A stretch of DNA of 64,000 bases from Deltaproteobacteria bacterium (GTDB taxonomy: Bacteria; Desulfobacterota; Syntrophia; Syntrophales; JAFGHS01), in contig JAFGHS010000042.1 of the NCBI GenBank assembly GCA_016930075.1, positions 1 to 64,000 of the forward strand, in the 5' to 3' direction. Below the pieces are notes generated by a model. That model saw only the letters and a list, made by a program, of their open reading frames with translations, was not told the DNA's origin and searched no databases. A program made the position numbers and the translations under genes. Positions 7,339 through 19,578 of the stretch are shown piece by piece; positions within the stretch are counted from its first letter, which is position 1, and the number at the start of each line of letters is the position of its first letter.

Positions 7339-7584
7339 ATGGCGAAGGTGATAGAGAAACGATGGACCGTAATGGTCTATCTGGCAGGCGACAACAATCC
7401 GGACAGCCCAGGGGGTGGTGTCCCCCTCCGACGGGATTGCAGGCAGTGGTGTCCCTCGCTGGCGGGGTGCAGCCCTCTTACGGGAGTGCAGGGGGTACGC
7501 CGGCGGGGTGCAGCGAGTGGTGTCCCCCTCCGGCGGGGGTGCAGGGGTTGGTGTCCCCCTCTGGAGGGGGCCAGGGGGAGGTAG
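7339..7584 (+). pseudogene. Clostripain/C11-like peptidase N-terminal fragment disrupted by GC-rich repeats
   Basis: Starts MAKVIEKRWTVMVYLAGDNN (C11-type N-terminus), then turns into repeat-encoded low complexity (PGGGVPLRRDCRQWCPSL...). Confidence 0.5.
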
Positions 7585-8070
7585 GCTTCTGATGCGGCTG
7601 CAATAGAAGAGGTATTAACAAATATTCAGAGGCTGCAAGAAAGATTGAATAGTTGGGGGTATTTACCACCTCCGTCACTTTGTGACACCTCCGCCAGCGG
7701 AGGACATTCGCCTTTTTTCGTGAAGCGTGCCGCGTTGCTCGTAAAGCGGAAAAACAGCAGCCCCTGCTTTGTCCCCCACCGGCAAGGGTGTAGGGAGTAG
7801 TGTCTCCCTCCGATGGGAGTGCAGGGAGCGGTGTTCCCCTCTGACGGGGGTGCAGGGGTTGGTGTCCCCCTCTGGAGGGGGCCAGGGGGAGGTAGGCTTC
7901 TGATGCGGCTGCAATTGAAGAGGTATTGACAAATATTCAGGGCTTGTTGGTGGCGGTGAAAAAGATGCCACTACCAGGGCTGCAAGAAGGATTGAAAGGA
8001 TTATGAAAACATCGTACCACCCCCTGCCCCCGCCGGTAGGGGATAAATGAGGACGGTGCGGGGGATGCGG
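7405..8070. repeat. GC-rich degenerate repeats 'gtgtccccctccggcgggggtgcagg' with an 89-bp direct duplication
   Basis: About 89 bp (gcaggggttggtgtccccctctggagggggccagggggaggtaggcttctgatgcggctgcaat(a/t)gaagaggtatt(a/g)acaaatattcag) at 7541-7629 and 7852-7940. Confidence 0.75.
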
Positions 8071-8090
8071 GGGGTGGACAACCAAAAGAG

Positions 8091-11000
8091 GTGACAGAAA
8101 TGGATGAGAAGAAGCAGTGTGAGATCGCGCGGATGAGCTGGACGGACCTGGCGAATAATCTCCAGATTCCGGAAAAGGGTAAACGCGGAGCAGGGGGCGT
8201 CTCCCAGGACAAGGCCCTCCGGGAATACTTCGGGGACGAAGAATACGCCTATCTCCAAAAACTGGCGACCCGCACCCGGGCTGCCCGTACGCGAAGCCCT
8301 GCGGAGGGAAACATCGTCCTGGTGCCCGGCATCATGGGTTCCAGTTTGATGACCACGGATACCGAAGGCGATGCAGACCTCATCTGGATCAGCCTCTTCA
8401 GGCTGGTTGCGGGACAGATCCGGCGTCTGGCCTTTAAGCCCGACGGCGCCTCCGAGGATAATTCCCGTTATGTCGTGACGCCCGGCGAACTGGACAAGCG
8501 GGTTTATACGCGCGCCGTCCTCTGGCTTCAGGCGTCATGGAATGTCGAATCTTTTCCCTTTGACTGGCGCAAGGACATCGACACCGCATCCGATGCGTTG
8601 GCGGTGTTTATTAAGCAGAAATTTCCCCATCAGCCGGTGCATCTTGTGGCCCATTCCATGGGCGGTCTTGTATGCCGAAATTTTATCCGGCGTCACGGGG
8701 AACAGTGGAACGCCCTGCAAGGCGGCGATGGCGCCGAGGGTGGACGCCTGATTATGCTGGGCACACCGAACTACGGGTCTTTTGCCATTCCCCAAACCAT
8801 GACGGGCCGTGAAACGCTGGTCAAACTCCTGGCCGCCGCGGACCTCAAAAACAGCCTGTCCGATATCCTCGACACCATCAATACCTTTGTCGGCAGCTAC
8901 GAGATGCTCCCGTCGCCGAGCAAACTCCCGCCGTCTCTGCAACGCCTCTATAAAAAGGACAGTTGGGGCCGTTACCCGGTTTCGGAAAAGCACCTTGATC
9001 GCGCCTTGCAGTTCCACCGCGATATGGAACGGGAAGATACGATTGACCCTGCCCGCATGACGTATATAGCGGGGTGCAACCAGGAGACGCTGGCGGGGAT
9101 GGAGGTTGTCGGACCAGGGGAATTCGACTATCTCGTCACGGATAACGGTGACGGCCGCGTGACCCATGAGTTAGGACTGCTTCCCGGAGTTCCGACGTAC
9201 TATGTGGAAGAGGCGCATGGCGATTTGCCGAAAAATGAACAGGTCCTTGCCGCTTTGCAGGACCTCCTGAAAATGGGCTACACCGATGCTTTGCCCATTC
9301 AGCCGGTGATATCCCGATCCCTTCCGTCTTCTGGCATATACAGGATAAACCGTGCAAGCGAAGAGAGCATCAGTCGCCAACTGGGAGACATATCTCTGCG
9401 CGTCAAAGGAAAGAAGGAATGCTCGCCCGATGATGTGCGTTTCGCCGAGGAGGCTCTCCTGAGAGCGGCGACAGGTCAACGTCCATCTTCCCGGCCCAAA
9501 GCATCAAAGGAAACGGGCAAAGACCGTTTTCAAAAGCAAAAACCCCTGCCCCTCCACATTGATGTGGTGAGAGGGGATGTGACCCAGATCAAAGCCCCCG
9601 TCCTGGTTGTCGGCCATTACAAAGGCGCTGCGCCGGTAAATGCCGAGGGGGCCCTTGACAAGGCCCTCGATTACTGGATTACCCATGCCGGCCGGCAGGG
9701 GATCATCGGCGCCGGCCTGGGAGAGCTCTTCTTTATCCCCATTATGGAAAAACAGGTTGCCGCCAAAGCCGTTGTGCTCGCGGGGATGGGAAACGAAGGC
9801 GAATTCACCAAACCCGATTTGCGATACCTGATTGCCAATGCCGCTTATGCCGCGTCGGCCCTGAAACTGGATACCTTTGCCACGGTCCTGATCGGTTCCG
9901 GGACGGGGAACCTGTCCAGGGAAAGGGCGCTGCGGGGCATGATCGAGGGGATGGCCGATGCAATGCAGCGATTGCCGGAGAAACAAAGGATTCAAACCCT
10001 CATCCTGGTGGAAAGGAATGACGAAGCGTATGCGGATATCGTAAAGTCGGTTCAGCTACTCAAAGAAAAAAAGGTTTTCCCAAATCTTTCCCTTCAGATC
10101 ACGAGCAGGACAATGAATCTGCCCATTGCCGGGGCTCCCCAAAAACGGCCGCCGGACATTCTGGAGGACGCATTCCCGGAAACGAGAATCACCGTGGAGA
10201 GGGACAGGGACAAATTCCGTTTTTCCGCGTTGAGTAAGACGGCCGTCGTCCCGGTTCGCGAGGTCGAGGTCCAGTCTCTTCTGGCCGGCGACATTGCGGA
10301 GCGGCTGATGTCATCGAGAACCCCGGAAGAACAGACGATATACGGCCAGATGCTTGCCGCCTATCTCATGCCGGAAGATTTTCGCCGCCTTGTCGAAGAG
10401 GCGGAATCCCTGACCCTGATCCTCGACCGCAGCACGGCATCGTTTCCCTGGGAGATGGCGGGCATCAAGAAAGCACAGGGATCGTCGTTCTTCGGCACTG
10501 ACCTCAATCTTACCCGTCAGTTCCGGACCATGCTGGCCTCGCCGGGCCTCATGCCCCCGCTCAATCGCTCCCTCCGGGTCCTGGTGATTGCCGATCCCGC
10601 TCCGGAAGAGGAATACCGATTGCCGGGCGCACGCCGCGAAGGCCGCGCCGTTGTGGACGTCCTGAACCGTTTCAAAAAAGGCAAAGGTCTGGACATTATG
10701 ATTGATGAACATATCGGCGCCAATGCCTGTGATCCCGTGGAGATTCTGGCGCTCCTGTACAATGAGGAATACGACATCGTCCACTACGCGGGCCACGGGC
10801 TGTTTGATGAAGAGAATCCGTCGCACGGCGGCTGGGTATTCGGCAAGGATTACATCCTGTCGGCGCGGGAGATCTTCCAGGCCCGCCGGGTGCCGCGGCT
10901 TGTCTTTGCCAATGCCTGTTTTTCCTCCGTCATCAAGGAACGACAGGCCATGGGCGCCGATGAAATGAACCGAAGCCTGGCCGGTATGGCCGAGGCGTTT

Positions 11001-11213
11001 TTCGCCCGCGGCATCCAGAACTATATCGGCGCCGGCTGGCCCGTGGATGATGAACCGGCCGTGATATTCGCCTCCGCATTTTACGAGAACGCCCTTGAAG
11101 GAAAGACCCTCGGGGCGTCCATCGCCGAAGCCCGCCGGGCCATTTTCGGCCAGGCCTCGACGTGGGGGGCCTATCAGCATTACGGACAGGTGAACGGGAA
11201 ATTAATCCTCTGA
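8091..11213 (+). CDS. Multidomain LCAT-like alpha/beta hydrolase plus CHAT (caspase-like) domain protein
   Basis: N-terminal 'NIVLVPGIMGSSLM' and nucleophile elbow 'LVAHSMGGLV' (LCAT-like lipase). C-terminal 'DIVHYAGHGLFD' (His) and 'RLVFANACFSSV' (Cys) are CHAT dyad motifs. Confidence 0.82.
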   Translation: MTEMDEKKQCEIARMSWTDLANNLQIPEKGKRGAGGVSQDKALREYFGDEEYAYLQKLATRTRAARTRSPAEGNIVLVPGIMGSSLMTTDTEGDADLIWISLFRLVAGQIRRLAFKPDGASEDNSRYVVTPGELDKRVYTRAVLWLQASWNVESFPFDWRKDIDTASDALAVFIKQKFPHQPVHLVAHSMGGLVCRNFIRRHGEQWNALQGGDGAEGGRLIMLGTPNYGSFAIPQTMTGRETLVKLLAAADLKNSLSDILDTINTFVGSYEMLPSPSKLPPSLQRLYKKDSWGRYPVSEKHLDRALQFHRDMEREDTIDPARMTYIAGCNQETLAGMEVVGPGEFDYLVTDNGDGRVTHELGLLPGVPTYYVEEAHGDLPKNEQVLAALQDLLKMGYTDALPIQPVISRSLPSSGIYRINRASEESISRQLGDISLRVKGKKECSPDDVRFAEEALLRAATGQRPSSRPKASKETGKDRFQKQKPLPLHIDVVRGDVTQIKAPVLVVGHYKGAAPVNAEGALDKALDYWITHAGRQGIIGAGLGELFFIPIMEKQVAAKAVVLAGMGNEGEFTKPDLRYLIANAAYAASALKLDTFATVLIGSGTGNLSRERALRGMIEGMADAMQRLPEKQRIQTLILVERNDEAYADIVKSVQLLKEKKVFPNLSLQITSRTMNLPIAGAPQKRPPDILEDAFPETRITVERDRDKFRFSALSKTAVVPVREVEVQSLLAGDIAERLMSSRTPEEQTIYGQMLAAYLMPEDFRRLVEEAESLTLILDRSTASFPWEMAGIKKAQGSSFFGTDLNLTRQFRTMLASPGLMPPLNRSLRVLVIADPAPEEEYRLPGARREGRAVVDVLNRFKKGKGLDIMIDEHIGANACDPVEILALLYNEEYDIVHYAGHGLFDEENPSHGGWVFGKDYILSAREIFQARRVPRLVFANACFSSVIKERQAMGADEMNRSLAGMAEAFFARGIQNYIGAGWPVDDEPAVIFASAFYENALEGKTLGASIAEARRAIFGQASTWGAYQHYGQVNGKLIL

Positions 11214-11595: not shown

Positions 11596-12555
11596 ATGAA
11601 AGATTACAAAGCAGACTTAAACCAACGATATTGGAACTATCAGAAAACTCAGTTTTCAGCTGGGTATACTTTCTTTGAGCGTTCGTTTGTCCAAGATGGA
11701 CGCCCACCTGTCTTTATTAGAAATGAAGCGTGGCGAAATGTCATTATCAATCCTGTTGCAGACGAACTGGAAACTCGTAGATTACTTGCTGTGATACCTG
11801 AAGGGGAAAGGCATAGATGGTTTGGTAGCATGAACAGTTCACAAGCCTTGGCACAAAGTGTATTTGGTAATTTGGCAACATACGACTCTTTGCACTACCT
11901 GTCTGACCTAACAGATGATGAAGGAATACCATTGTTTGGTAAAGCACAAATATCATCAGATAATTTTAAGATGGAGCATAAAATAGATTATCTTGGCGAA
12001 CCACGTCGTACAAGCCTTGATGGATATATTTCCGGAGATTATCGAATAGCAATTGAATGTAAGTTTACTGAACAAGAAATCGGGACTTGTTCTCGACCAC
12101 GATTAAAAGCAACGGTTTCAAACTATGAGAGCGAACATTGCAATGGAACTTATTCAATACAAAGGGCAAGAAGGGAACGATGTTCATTAACCGAAATTGG
12201 TGTTTTATATTGGCACTATGTTCCGTACTTGCTCAATTGGAAAAATGATAGCGATTATAATCCATGCCCACTGAATAAAAACTATCAATTGGTAAGAAAT
12301 ATCTTGGCAGTAGGCATAAATACAGATGGAAATGCATCTGTTAATAGTGGTCATGTCATACTAATTTATGATGAGCGTAATCCAGCTTTCCAGCAAGGTG
12401 GAAATGGTCTACTTGCTTATATAAGCATTCAATCAGATCTGCGAGAACCTGCAATGTTAAGGAAATGTAGTTGGCAACGTATTATCCAGCATATAAGAGA
12501 AAAAAACATTTTGTCTTGGCTAACAGAGAACCTTACACTAAAGTATGGGTTGTAG
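11596..12555 (+). CDS. Putative PD-(D/E)XK-family nuclease (PGN_0703-like / restriction-endonuclease-like)
   Basis: 319 aa; 'RTSLDGYISGDYRIAIECKFTEQEIG' fits the D-x(n)-E-x-K core. AT-rich relative to the flanks. Confidence 0.6.
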   Translation: MKDYKADLNQRYWNYQKTQFSAGYTFFERSFVQDGRPPVFIRNEAWRNVIINPVADELETRRLLAVIPEGERHRWFGSMNSSQALAQSVFGNLATYDSLHYLSDLTDDEGIPLFGKAQISSDNFKMEHKIDYLGEPRRTSLDGYISGDYRIAIECKFTEQEIGTCSRPRLKATVSNYESEHCNGTYSIQRARRERCSLTEIGVLYWHYVPYLLNWKNDSDYNPCPLNKNYQLVRNILAVGINTDGNASVNSGHVILIYDERNPAFQQGGNGLLAYISIQSDLREPAMLRKCSWQRIIQHIREKNILSWLTENLTLKYGL

Positions 12556-18847: not shown

Positions 18848-19249
18848 CTAAAAAGCATCAATGCTTCTCAGATATTTTTTCATCTCTCGTATGTACTTCT
18901 TTGCATCTCTAACGATCGTCTCGGCTGTTTTCTTATCGAAAATGACTTTGACTGTATAATCGCTTTCTTCCCGTTTTGTTCTAATGTAGTCAAATATCTT
19001 TCCGTACTCGATATCGAATATCTTGGGTTTAATAAAATACTGATTGAATGCTGCTTCCACACCGGTATGCTTCGAGCGTTCCAGCTTTTTGGTAAGAAGA
19101 TCGGCAGTGGTGACGCTGAAGATCGCATAATAAGCCCTGTTTACTGCAGCACGATAACGCTTGAGCGATAATAGTTCGGTTGCCGTATCAATGTCCTCTT
19201 CGGTCTTTTCTATACGGACTTTGACAAGTTCTCGGATGCTTTCGTCCAA
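18848..19249 (-). CDS. HEPN-domain protein (MNT/HEPN module)
   Basis: 'ELLSLKRYRAAVNRAYYAIFSVTTADLL', typical HEPN helix; directly follows and overlaps an NTase ORF. Confidence 0.8.
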   Translation of the reverse strand: MDESIRELVKVRIEKTEEDIDTATELLSLKRYRAAVNRAYYAIFSVTTADLLTKKLERSKHTGVEAAFNQYFIKPKIFDIEYGKIFDYIRTKREESDYTVKVIFDKKTAETIVRDAKKYIREMKKYLRSIDAF

Positions 19250-19578
19250 AGCTCTATCCCATCCCTGTGGACATTTTTATAGAAGGGGTCTTTGTTAATG
19301 CGGTGCCAGTCGAAGGTGCTTTTATCCATCACGATCGGTGAAAAGACCATATTGTTTTTCAATGCAACCTCATACGCCGACATGCTTATCTCATCTTTCA
19401 ATCTGTCGTATTTGTCGGGGACAACAATGAGGATATCGATGTCTGAATCCCTGTCGTTTTCTCCTCGTGCGGCAGATCCGAATAACATAGCCTGCAAGAT
19501 GATTGAGCCGTACTGCTTTTTTAGAAGCTTTGTATATTCATCTATCGCCTTGTTCAACTTTCCGTTCATATTGGCCAA
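19210..19578 (-). CDS. MNT-type nucleotidyltransferase (MNT/HEPN module)
   Basis: 'AMLFGSAARGENDRDSDIDILIVV': GSxARG...DxD nucleotidyltransferase motif. Confidence 0.88.
   Translation of the reverse strand: MANMNGKLNKAIDEYTKLLKKQYGSIILQAMLFGSAARGENDRDSDIDILIVVPDKYDRLKDEISMSAYEVALKNNMVFSPIVMDKSTFDWHRINKDPFYKNVHRDGIELWTKASENLSKSV

Follow-up and report, generated by a model that had tools for sequence, protein, structure and literature searches.

In the MoxR-vWA/VMAP ternary conflict systems, a caspase and an α/β-hydrolase are encoded by neighbouring genes (PMC7159879). The fusion family described here, which we found in the window (the whole stretch of 64,000 nucleotides of bacterial DNA that was analysed), likewise places a caspase-superfamily protease beside an α/β-hydrolase. 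However, the hydrolase of those ternary systems is a neighbouring gene, whereas here a lipase and a CHAT protease form one polypeptide with the N-domain of an M17 aminopeptidase (M17N) between them, and no vWA/MoxR gene was present among the window flanks scanned. Phage defence also employs proenzyme effectors that are activated by partner proteases, as in the caspase-nuclease (canu) and trypsin-nuclease pairs (PMC12799240). We propose the same logic for the fusion, namely a pro-effector that a partner protease switches on, but the effector of these pairs is an MBL nuclease whose gating loops are cut, while the fusion would have a lipase as its effector, with a protease fused to it and the cut predicted after an arginine of the linker.

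The CHAT fold is common to the fusion, to Craspase TPR-CHAT and to SAVED-CHAT of type III-B CRISPR, where a CHAT protease is coupled to a caspase-type protease, PCaspase. In contrast to these, the fusion protein has an added lipase and contains no SAVED domain. PADLOC matched residues 873-1016 of the fusion to positions 526-664 of the 711 positions in the model of BovA (Borvo) with an E-value of 1.7e-9; this is not a match to the full-length model, as it is confined to CHAT and has no counterpart of the lipase or M17N. The family also resembles Thoeris-type TIR signalling, in that the fold of the middle domain is macro-like and TIR genes adjoin some of the homologues, one of them being ThsB-like according to PADLOC. 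However, TIR genes lie within about 10 kb of only 16 of the 90 family loci (a raw count, without a random-locus baseline), there is none in the window genome, and the profiles favour M17N over a canonical macro domain. From the ternary systems and the protease-nuclease pairs the family differs in three respects: its lipase is fused to its protease, M17N separates the two, and the partner is another protease of clan CD. Literature searches returned no earlier description of the lipase-M17N-CHAT architecture, although one may still exist in a J. Bacteriol. 2020 study, which reportedly defined TPR-S and pYEATS.

Gene structure and domain composition

The initial annotation had described a lipase-like and CHAT fusion within one ORF, and our analysis bears this out. 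The region window:8091-11213(+) is a single intact open frame of 1040 aa. It contains the GIMGSS and HSMGG motifs, and both Pfam LCAT (PF02450; aa 151-274, E 1.4e-6, 28.3 bits versus a cut-off of 21) and Pfam CHAT (PF12770; aa 751-1032, E 2.9e-28, 99.6 bits versus a cut-off of 24) match above their curated cut-offs. Because the Shine-Dalgarno sequence AGAGGTG, at about 8085-8091, overlaps the GTG at 8091 and has a spacing that suits the ATG at 8100, this ATG is the likelier start, and the fusion protein would more likely be 1037 aa than 1040 aa long. The features are summarised in Table 1.

Table 1. Features of the fusion gene and of its upstream region in the window
Feature	Position	Strand	Details	Evidence
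Clostripain (Peptidase_C11) remnant	7339..7416	+	First ~25 codons, in the partner position	tblastn to L112 clostripain
Dispersed GC-rich repeat copies	7409..7940		Site of the missing clostripain remainder	Repeat search
Lipase-M17N-CHAT fusion CDS	8100..11213	+	ORF opens at GTG 8091	
LCAT-type α/β-hydrolase (lipase-like) domain	8313..9305	+	About aa 75-405; S189, D354, H376	Pfam LCAT, residue conservation, model
Variable, partly disordered linker	9306..9542	+	About aa 406-484; R409 codon 9315-9317, candidate Arg cleavage site	Alignment, shuffle test, pLDDT
M17 aminopeptidase N-domain-like (macro-fold) domain	9540..10316	+	aa 484-742	Pfam, structure model, hhalign
CHAT protease domain	10341..11186	+	aa 751-1032; dyad H902, C943	Pfam, conservation, fold matches

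The sequence contains the putative Ser/Asp/His triad of an LCAT-type lipase (S189/D354/H376). We summarised conservation over 87 core sequences, read in frame from the match coordinates, and rows without the region concerned were left out of the denominators. S189 was found in 85/86 of these sequences, and D354 and H376 in 86/86 each. The His/Cys dyad previously proposed for the CHAT domain corresponds to H902 and C943, and both residues are present in all 85 core sequences that could be compared, so the dyad is not lost anywhere in this set. A search of the fusion protein against PDB with phmmer recovered no sequence relative. The full-length structure model (pLDDT 88.8, pTM 0.57) matched separase, Craspase TPR-CHAT and SAVED-CHAT in structure comparison, and no obvious disordered gating insertion was seen inside its lipase fold. 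The genome has a second CHAT gene (C113), which encodes a different protein, apparently a lipoprotein.

The middle region, approximately residues 490-640, had been singled out earlier as a distinct segment without a name, and it can now be identified as M17N. Pfam Peptidase_M17_N matched aa 506-624 (E 8e-10, 39.1 bits versus a cut-off of 23.4), and hhalign aligned the domain with M17N with a probability of 98 and an E-value of 3e-13. The AlphaFold model of the region (pLDDT 88.5) matched the N-domains of leucine aminopeptidases and also macro domains, including PARP9 macro 2 with NAD+. We considered an ordinary macro domain, but the profiles do not support it: hhalign against canonical macro (PF01661) gave a probability of 0.4 and an E-value of 0.17, Pfam gave no match to it either, and the likeness to macro domains is one of fold only. 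The catalytic metallopeptidase domain of M17 had no Pfam match in the fusion protein, where M17N is followed by CHAT instead. By its profile matches, the middle region is the N-domain of an M17 leucyl aminopeptidase without the catalytic domain.

Distribution of the family

We found the three-domain order in at least about 90 loci, some of them on plasmids, that represent at least nine bacterial phyla, and since the catalytic residues are kept as well, the architecture is not a product of chance. A single-sequence search of genome contigs gave no match; with an alignment as the query and one genome per species we recovered at least 80 loci, and tblastn against plasmids found full-length homologues in Rhizobium, Azotobacter, Burkholderia, Paracoccus and Ensifer. 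The tree comprises Nitrospirota, Acidobacteriota, Verrucomicrobiota, Planctomycetota, Pseudomonadota, Myxococcota, Thermodesulfobacteriota, Bacteroidota and Actinomycetota, and its clades of mixed phyla indicate horizontal transfer. The window copy groups with homologues from Nitrospira and one from Bryobacterales, at 46-51% identity among the matches listed. It belongs to a short clade of about 1040-1200 aa, with one longer member (L066). The members of a long clade have about 1600-2200 aa and typically have an additional DUF7379 hydrolase at the N-terminus and are extended at the C-terminus.

Close to the host the gene is rare, being present in one of the 100 nearest genomes. Within the phylum of the window 21/396 genomes had a match. 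In most of them only CHAT matched, and no more than about seven of the 396 combine the lipase with M17N-CHAT. The distribution is patchy and points to horizontal movement of the gene. A constant housekeeping context, which would speak against the immune role suggested by the initial annotation, was not observed, as the homologues often lie near immune-type genes.

Three plasmid loci present the domains in other combinations. In Qingshengfaniella (L011:7938-10460) the same kind of lipase is fused to a trypsin-like protease and not to CHAT. In Streptomyces (L012:3865-9353) a STAND ATPase with a C-terminal CHAT has a 4-base overlap with a stand-alone lipase of the same kind. The Rhizobium locus (L010:4975-18865) encodes an M17N-CHAT-TPR-S protein without the lipase, situated between two TIR-nSTAND1/WD40-type proteins.

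Genes neighbouring the fusion

The commonest neighbour of the homologues is a metacaspase. Among the matches listed, it immediately precedes the fusion gene in the same orientation in 31 of the 75 loci that could be tested (those with at least 900 bp of upstream sequence). Loci with a metacaspase include L013, L015 and L016 from Nitrospira, which are about 50% identical to the window copy, and L017 from Bryobacterales. The catalytic Cys motif is kept in 32 of the 33 partner metacaspases. At two other loci, L112 and L110 (the same locus as L028), a clostripain stands in place of the metacaspase. Some 40% of the testable loci thus have another clan CD protease, either a metacaspase or a clostripain, immediately before the fusion gene. 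The effector was previously suggested to be self-contained; given the partner protease, the system often is not. The gene upstream of the Rubrivivax homologue (L071:5110-8400) looks caspase-like with its catalytic residues lost, as judged by eye only.

The other neighbours are more varied. In L013 the gene row reads TPR-S-type, metacaspase, patatin-TPR-S, fusion and DUF4062-TPR, and patatin or nuclease genes also adjoin part of the loci. We counted TPR-S-type proteins, an assignment confirmed by Pfam for some members only, in 17/90 loci, SIR2 in 3/90 and nSTAND in 4/90. At least one scored immune partner was present in 48 of the 90 loci and none in the remaining 42; all these are raw counts without a random-locus baseline.

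Directly upstream of the fusion in the window there is no intact C14 or C11 protease, only the remnant of a clostripain. The remnant begins MAKVIEKRWTVMVYLAGDNN... and shares 15/27 identical residues with the clostripain of L112 (tblastn, E 2e-6). In place of the remaining clostripain gene there are GC-rich repeats at 7409-7940, which are about 30-125 bp long each and occur at 30 places in the genome. Peptidase_C11, Peptidase_C14, TIR_2 and SIR2_2 had no match in the window genome, which is 92% complete. With a remnant of clostripain and neither C11 nor C14 in the genome, the two-protease arrangement has therefore lost its partner in this genome.

Downstream of the fusion, the next gene (11596-12555, +) encodes REase-ARP, a nuclease with the restriction-endonuclease (PD-(D/E)XK) fold. 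The REase-ARP family is a rapidly evolving nuclease of NAD/ADP-ribose-linked systems (PMC9503650). We considered it as an operon partner and treated it as unrelated, as it is 383 bp away, AT-richer and not a recurrent neighbour. The absence of a known defence operon, noted earlier, holds for the intact genes upstream; it has to be amended by the broken clostripain start upstream, by REase-ARP downstream and by the immune neighbours seen at the level of the family. Otherwise the flanks consist mostly of housekeeping genes (M16C peptidase, MFS, GGDEF, B12-binding). Elsewhere in the window, 18848-19578 (-) holds a HEPN and nucleotidyltransferase (MNT) pair, likely a toxin-antitoxin module, and 1-2500 is a long low-complexity stretch with strong AT skew (-0.8) and repetitive ORFs overlapping in several frames.

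A conserved arginine in the linker

The linker behind the lipase has a variable length, and its residues 409-414 have a pLDDT below 50 in the full-length model. In the alignment, 82/85 sequences have an arginine at the position of R409, followed mostly by Gly, Ala or Ser. Because a multiple alignment over-aligns Arg in gappy linkers, we relied mainly on an alignment-free test in which each linker was shuffled separately. An R[GAS] motif 8-12 residues past the lipase-end anchor was found in 66 of 84 sequences versus 13.7±3.2 (maximum 25) after shuffling, uncorrected for relatedness. In the long forms, the R[GAS] enrichment was weaker in the linker that joins the two hydrolases (34/48 versus 17.0±3.3).

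Cleavage after Arg is typical of metacaspases, clostripain, trypsin and separase-type proteases. All four kinds are seen with this lipase: C14 and C11 proteases are encoded next to it, trypsin is fused to it (L011), and CHAT is present in cis. As all these Arg-specific kinds co-occur with the lipase and the linker Arg is conserved, we predict that the lipase is released at R409, probably by Arg-specific cleavage. The conserved Arg also fits the activation of the lipase by cleavage proposed in the initial annotation. The enzyme cutting at R409 could be the partner protease rather than CHAT, and the role of R409 could instead be structural.

Discussion

We see about an even chance that the fusion is a zymogen effector of an abortive-infection-type defence, in which a protease would free the lipase to attack the membrane of its own cell. 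The data show the architecture, the two conserved active sites, the recurring partner protease, the conserved Arg of the linker and the patchy distribution; the zymogen state, the cleavage, the lipid substrate and the phage trigger we infer. The LCAT-like lipase would be kept inactive through its fusion to the M17N/macro-like and CHAT modules. Speaking against this proposal are the absence of an obvious gating insertion in the lipase fold, the 42 loci with no scored immune partner and the broken partner protease of the window. Upon infection, an upstream signal would switch the protease on; in the relatives this signal would probably pass via the metacaspase or clostripain encoded alongside and, in some of them, involve TIR/SIR2/TPR-S/STAND partners. 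The polypeptide would be cut after R409 either by its own CHAT domain or by the partner, two proteases expected to cut after Arg, and the freed lipase would attack the cell's own membrane, so that phage replication stops. Since the partner protease is broken in the window genome, the effector would either work alone there, with CHAT activating itself, or be decaying.

Decay would make the window gene a leftover of a two-protease operon that no longer functions, and we consider this very improbable. It would account for a clostripain partner reduced to ~25 codons, with the remainder taken over by repeats, and for the lack of C11 or C14 elsewhere in the 92% complete genome. However, the frame stays open for all 1040 codons, every catalytic residue is present, the Shine-Dalgarno sequence is good, and many homologues have no adjacent protease partner either. 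The roles of the two enzymes could also be reversed, with CHAT as the toxic part, degrading proteins of the host or of the phage. The lipase and M17N would then be sensor or targeting modules, or the lipase would remove a lipid-type signal, and cleavage at R409 would free CHAT from the lipase part. CHAT is indeed the domain that the fusion has in common with validated immune proteases, PADLOC relates the CHAT part to BovA (E 1.7e-9), and the Rhizobium relative L010 keeps M17N-CHAT without the lipase. We nevertheless find this explanation unlikely: the lipase triad is conserved as well as the CHAT dyad, and the lipase is also found with trypsin (L011) or apart from CHAT (L012), which argues for an enzymatic role of its own.

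A role outside immunity, as an enzyme of the envelope or of lipid metabolism, or as a stress or development protein, with turnover controlled by the CHAT part, would agree with the housekeeping character of most window flanks and with the roughly half of the loci without scored immune neighbours. Many prokaryotic metacaspase operons, moreover, have non-defence neighbours (PMC3501461). However, the patchy, horizontally moved distribution, the copies on plasmids and the recurrent TIR/SIR2/TPR-S/STAND neighbours are typical of conflict systems, and a non-immune function appears to us an improbable explanation too.

Returning to a lipase that is freed by a protease, a wider and rather doubtful version, which we put forward tentatively, is that the family represents an undescribed immune module present across phyla. 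The lipase zymogen would come with a built-in CHAT activator and with a sensor of macro fold for a nucleotide-type (e.g. NAD-derived) signal. Metacaspase or clostripain, as interchangeable Arg-specific proteases of clan CD, would be connected to it in a two-protease cascade that ends in the destruction of the membrane. If this is true, the module would be a cross-phylum, lipase-based counterpart of gasdermin-type cell death. A pro-lipase within one polypeptide would extend the logic of protease-activated pro-nucleases to membrane attack, and the family would offer a simple system for learning what prokaryotic metacaspases do.
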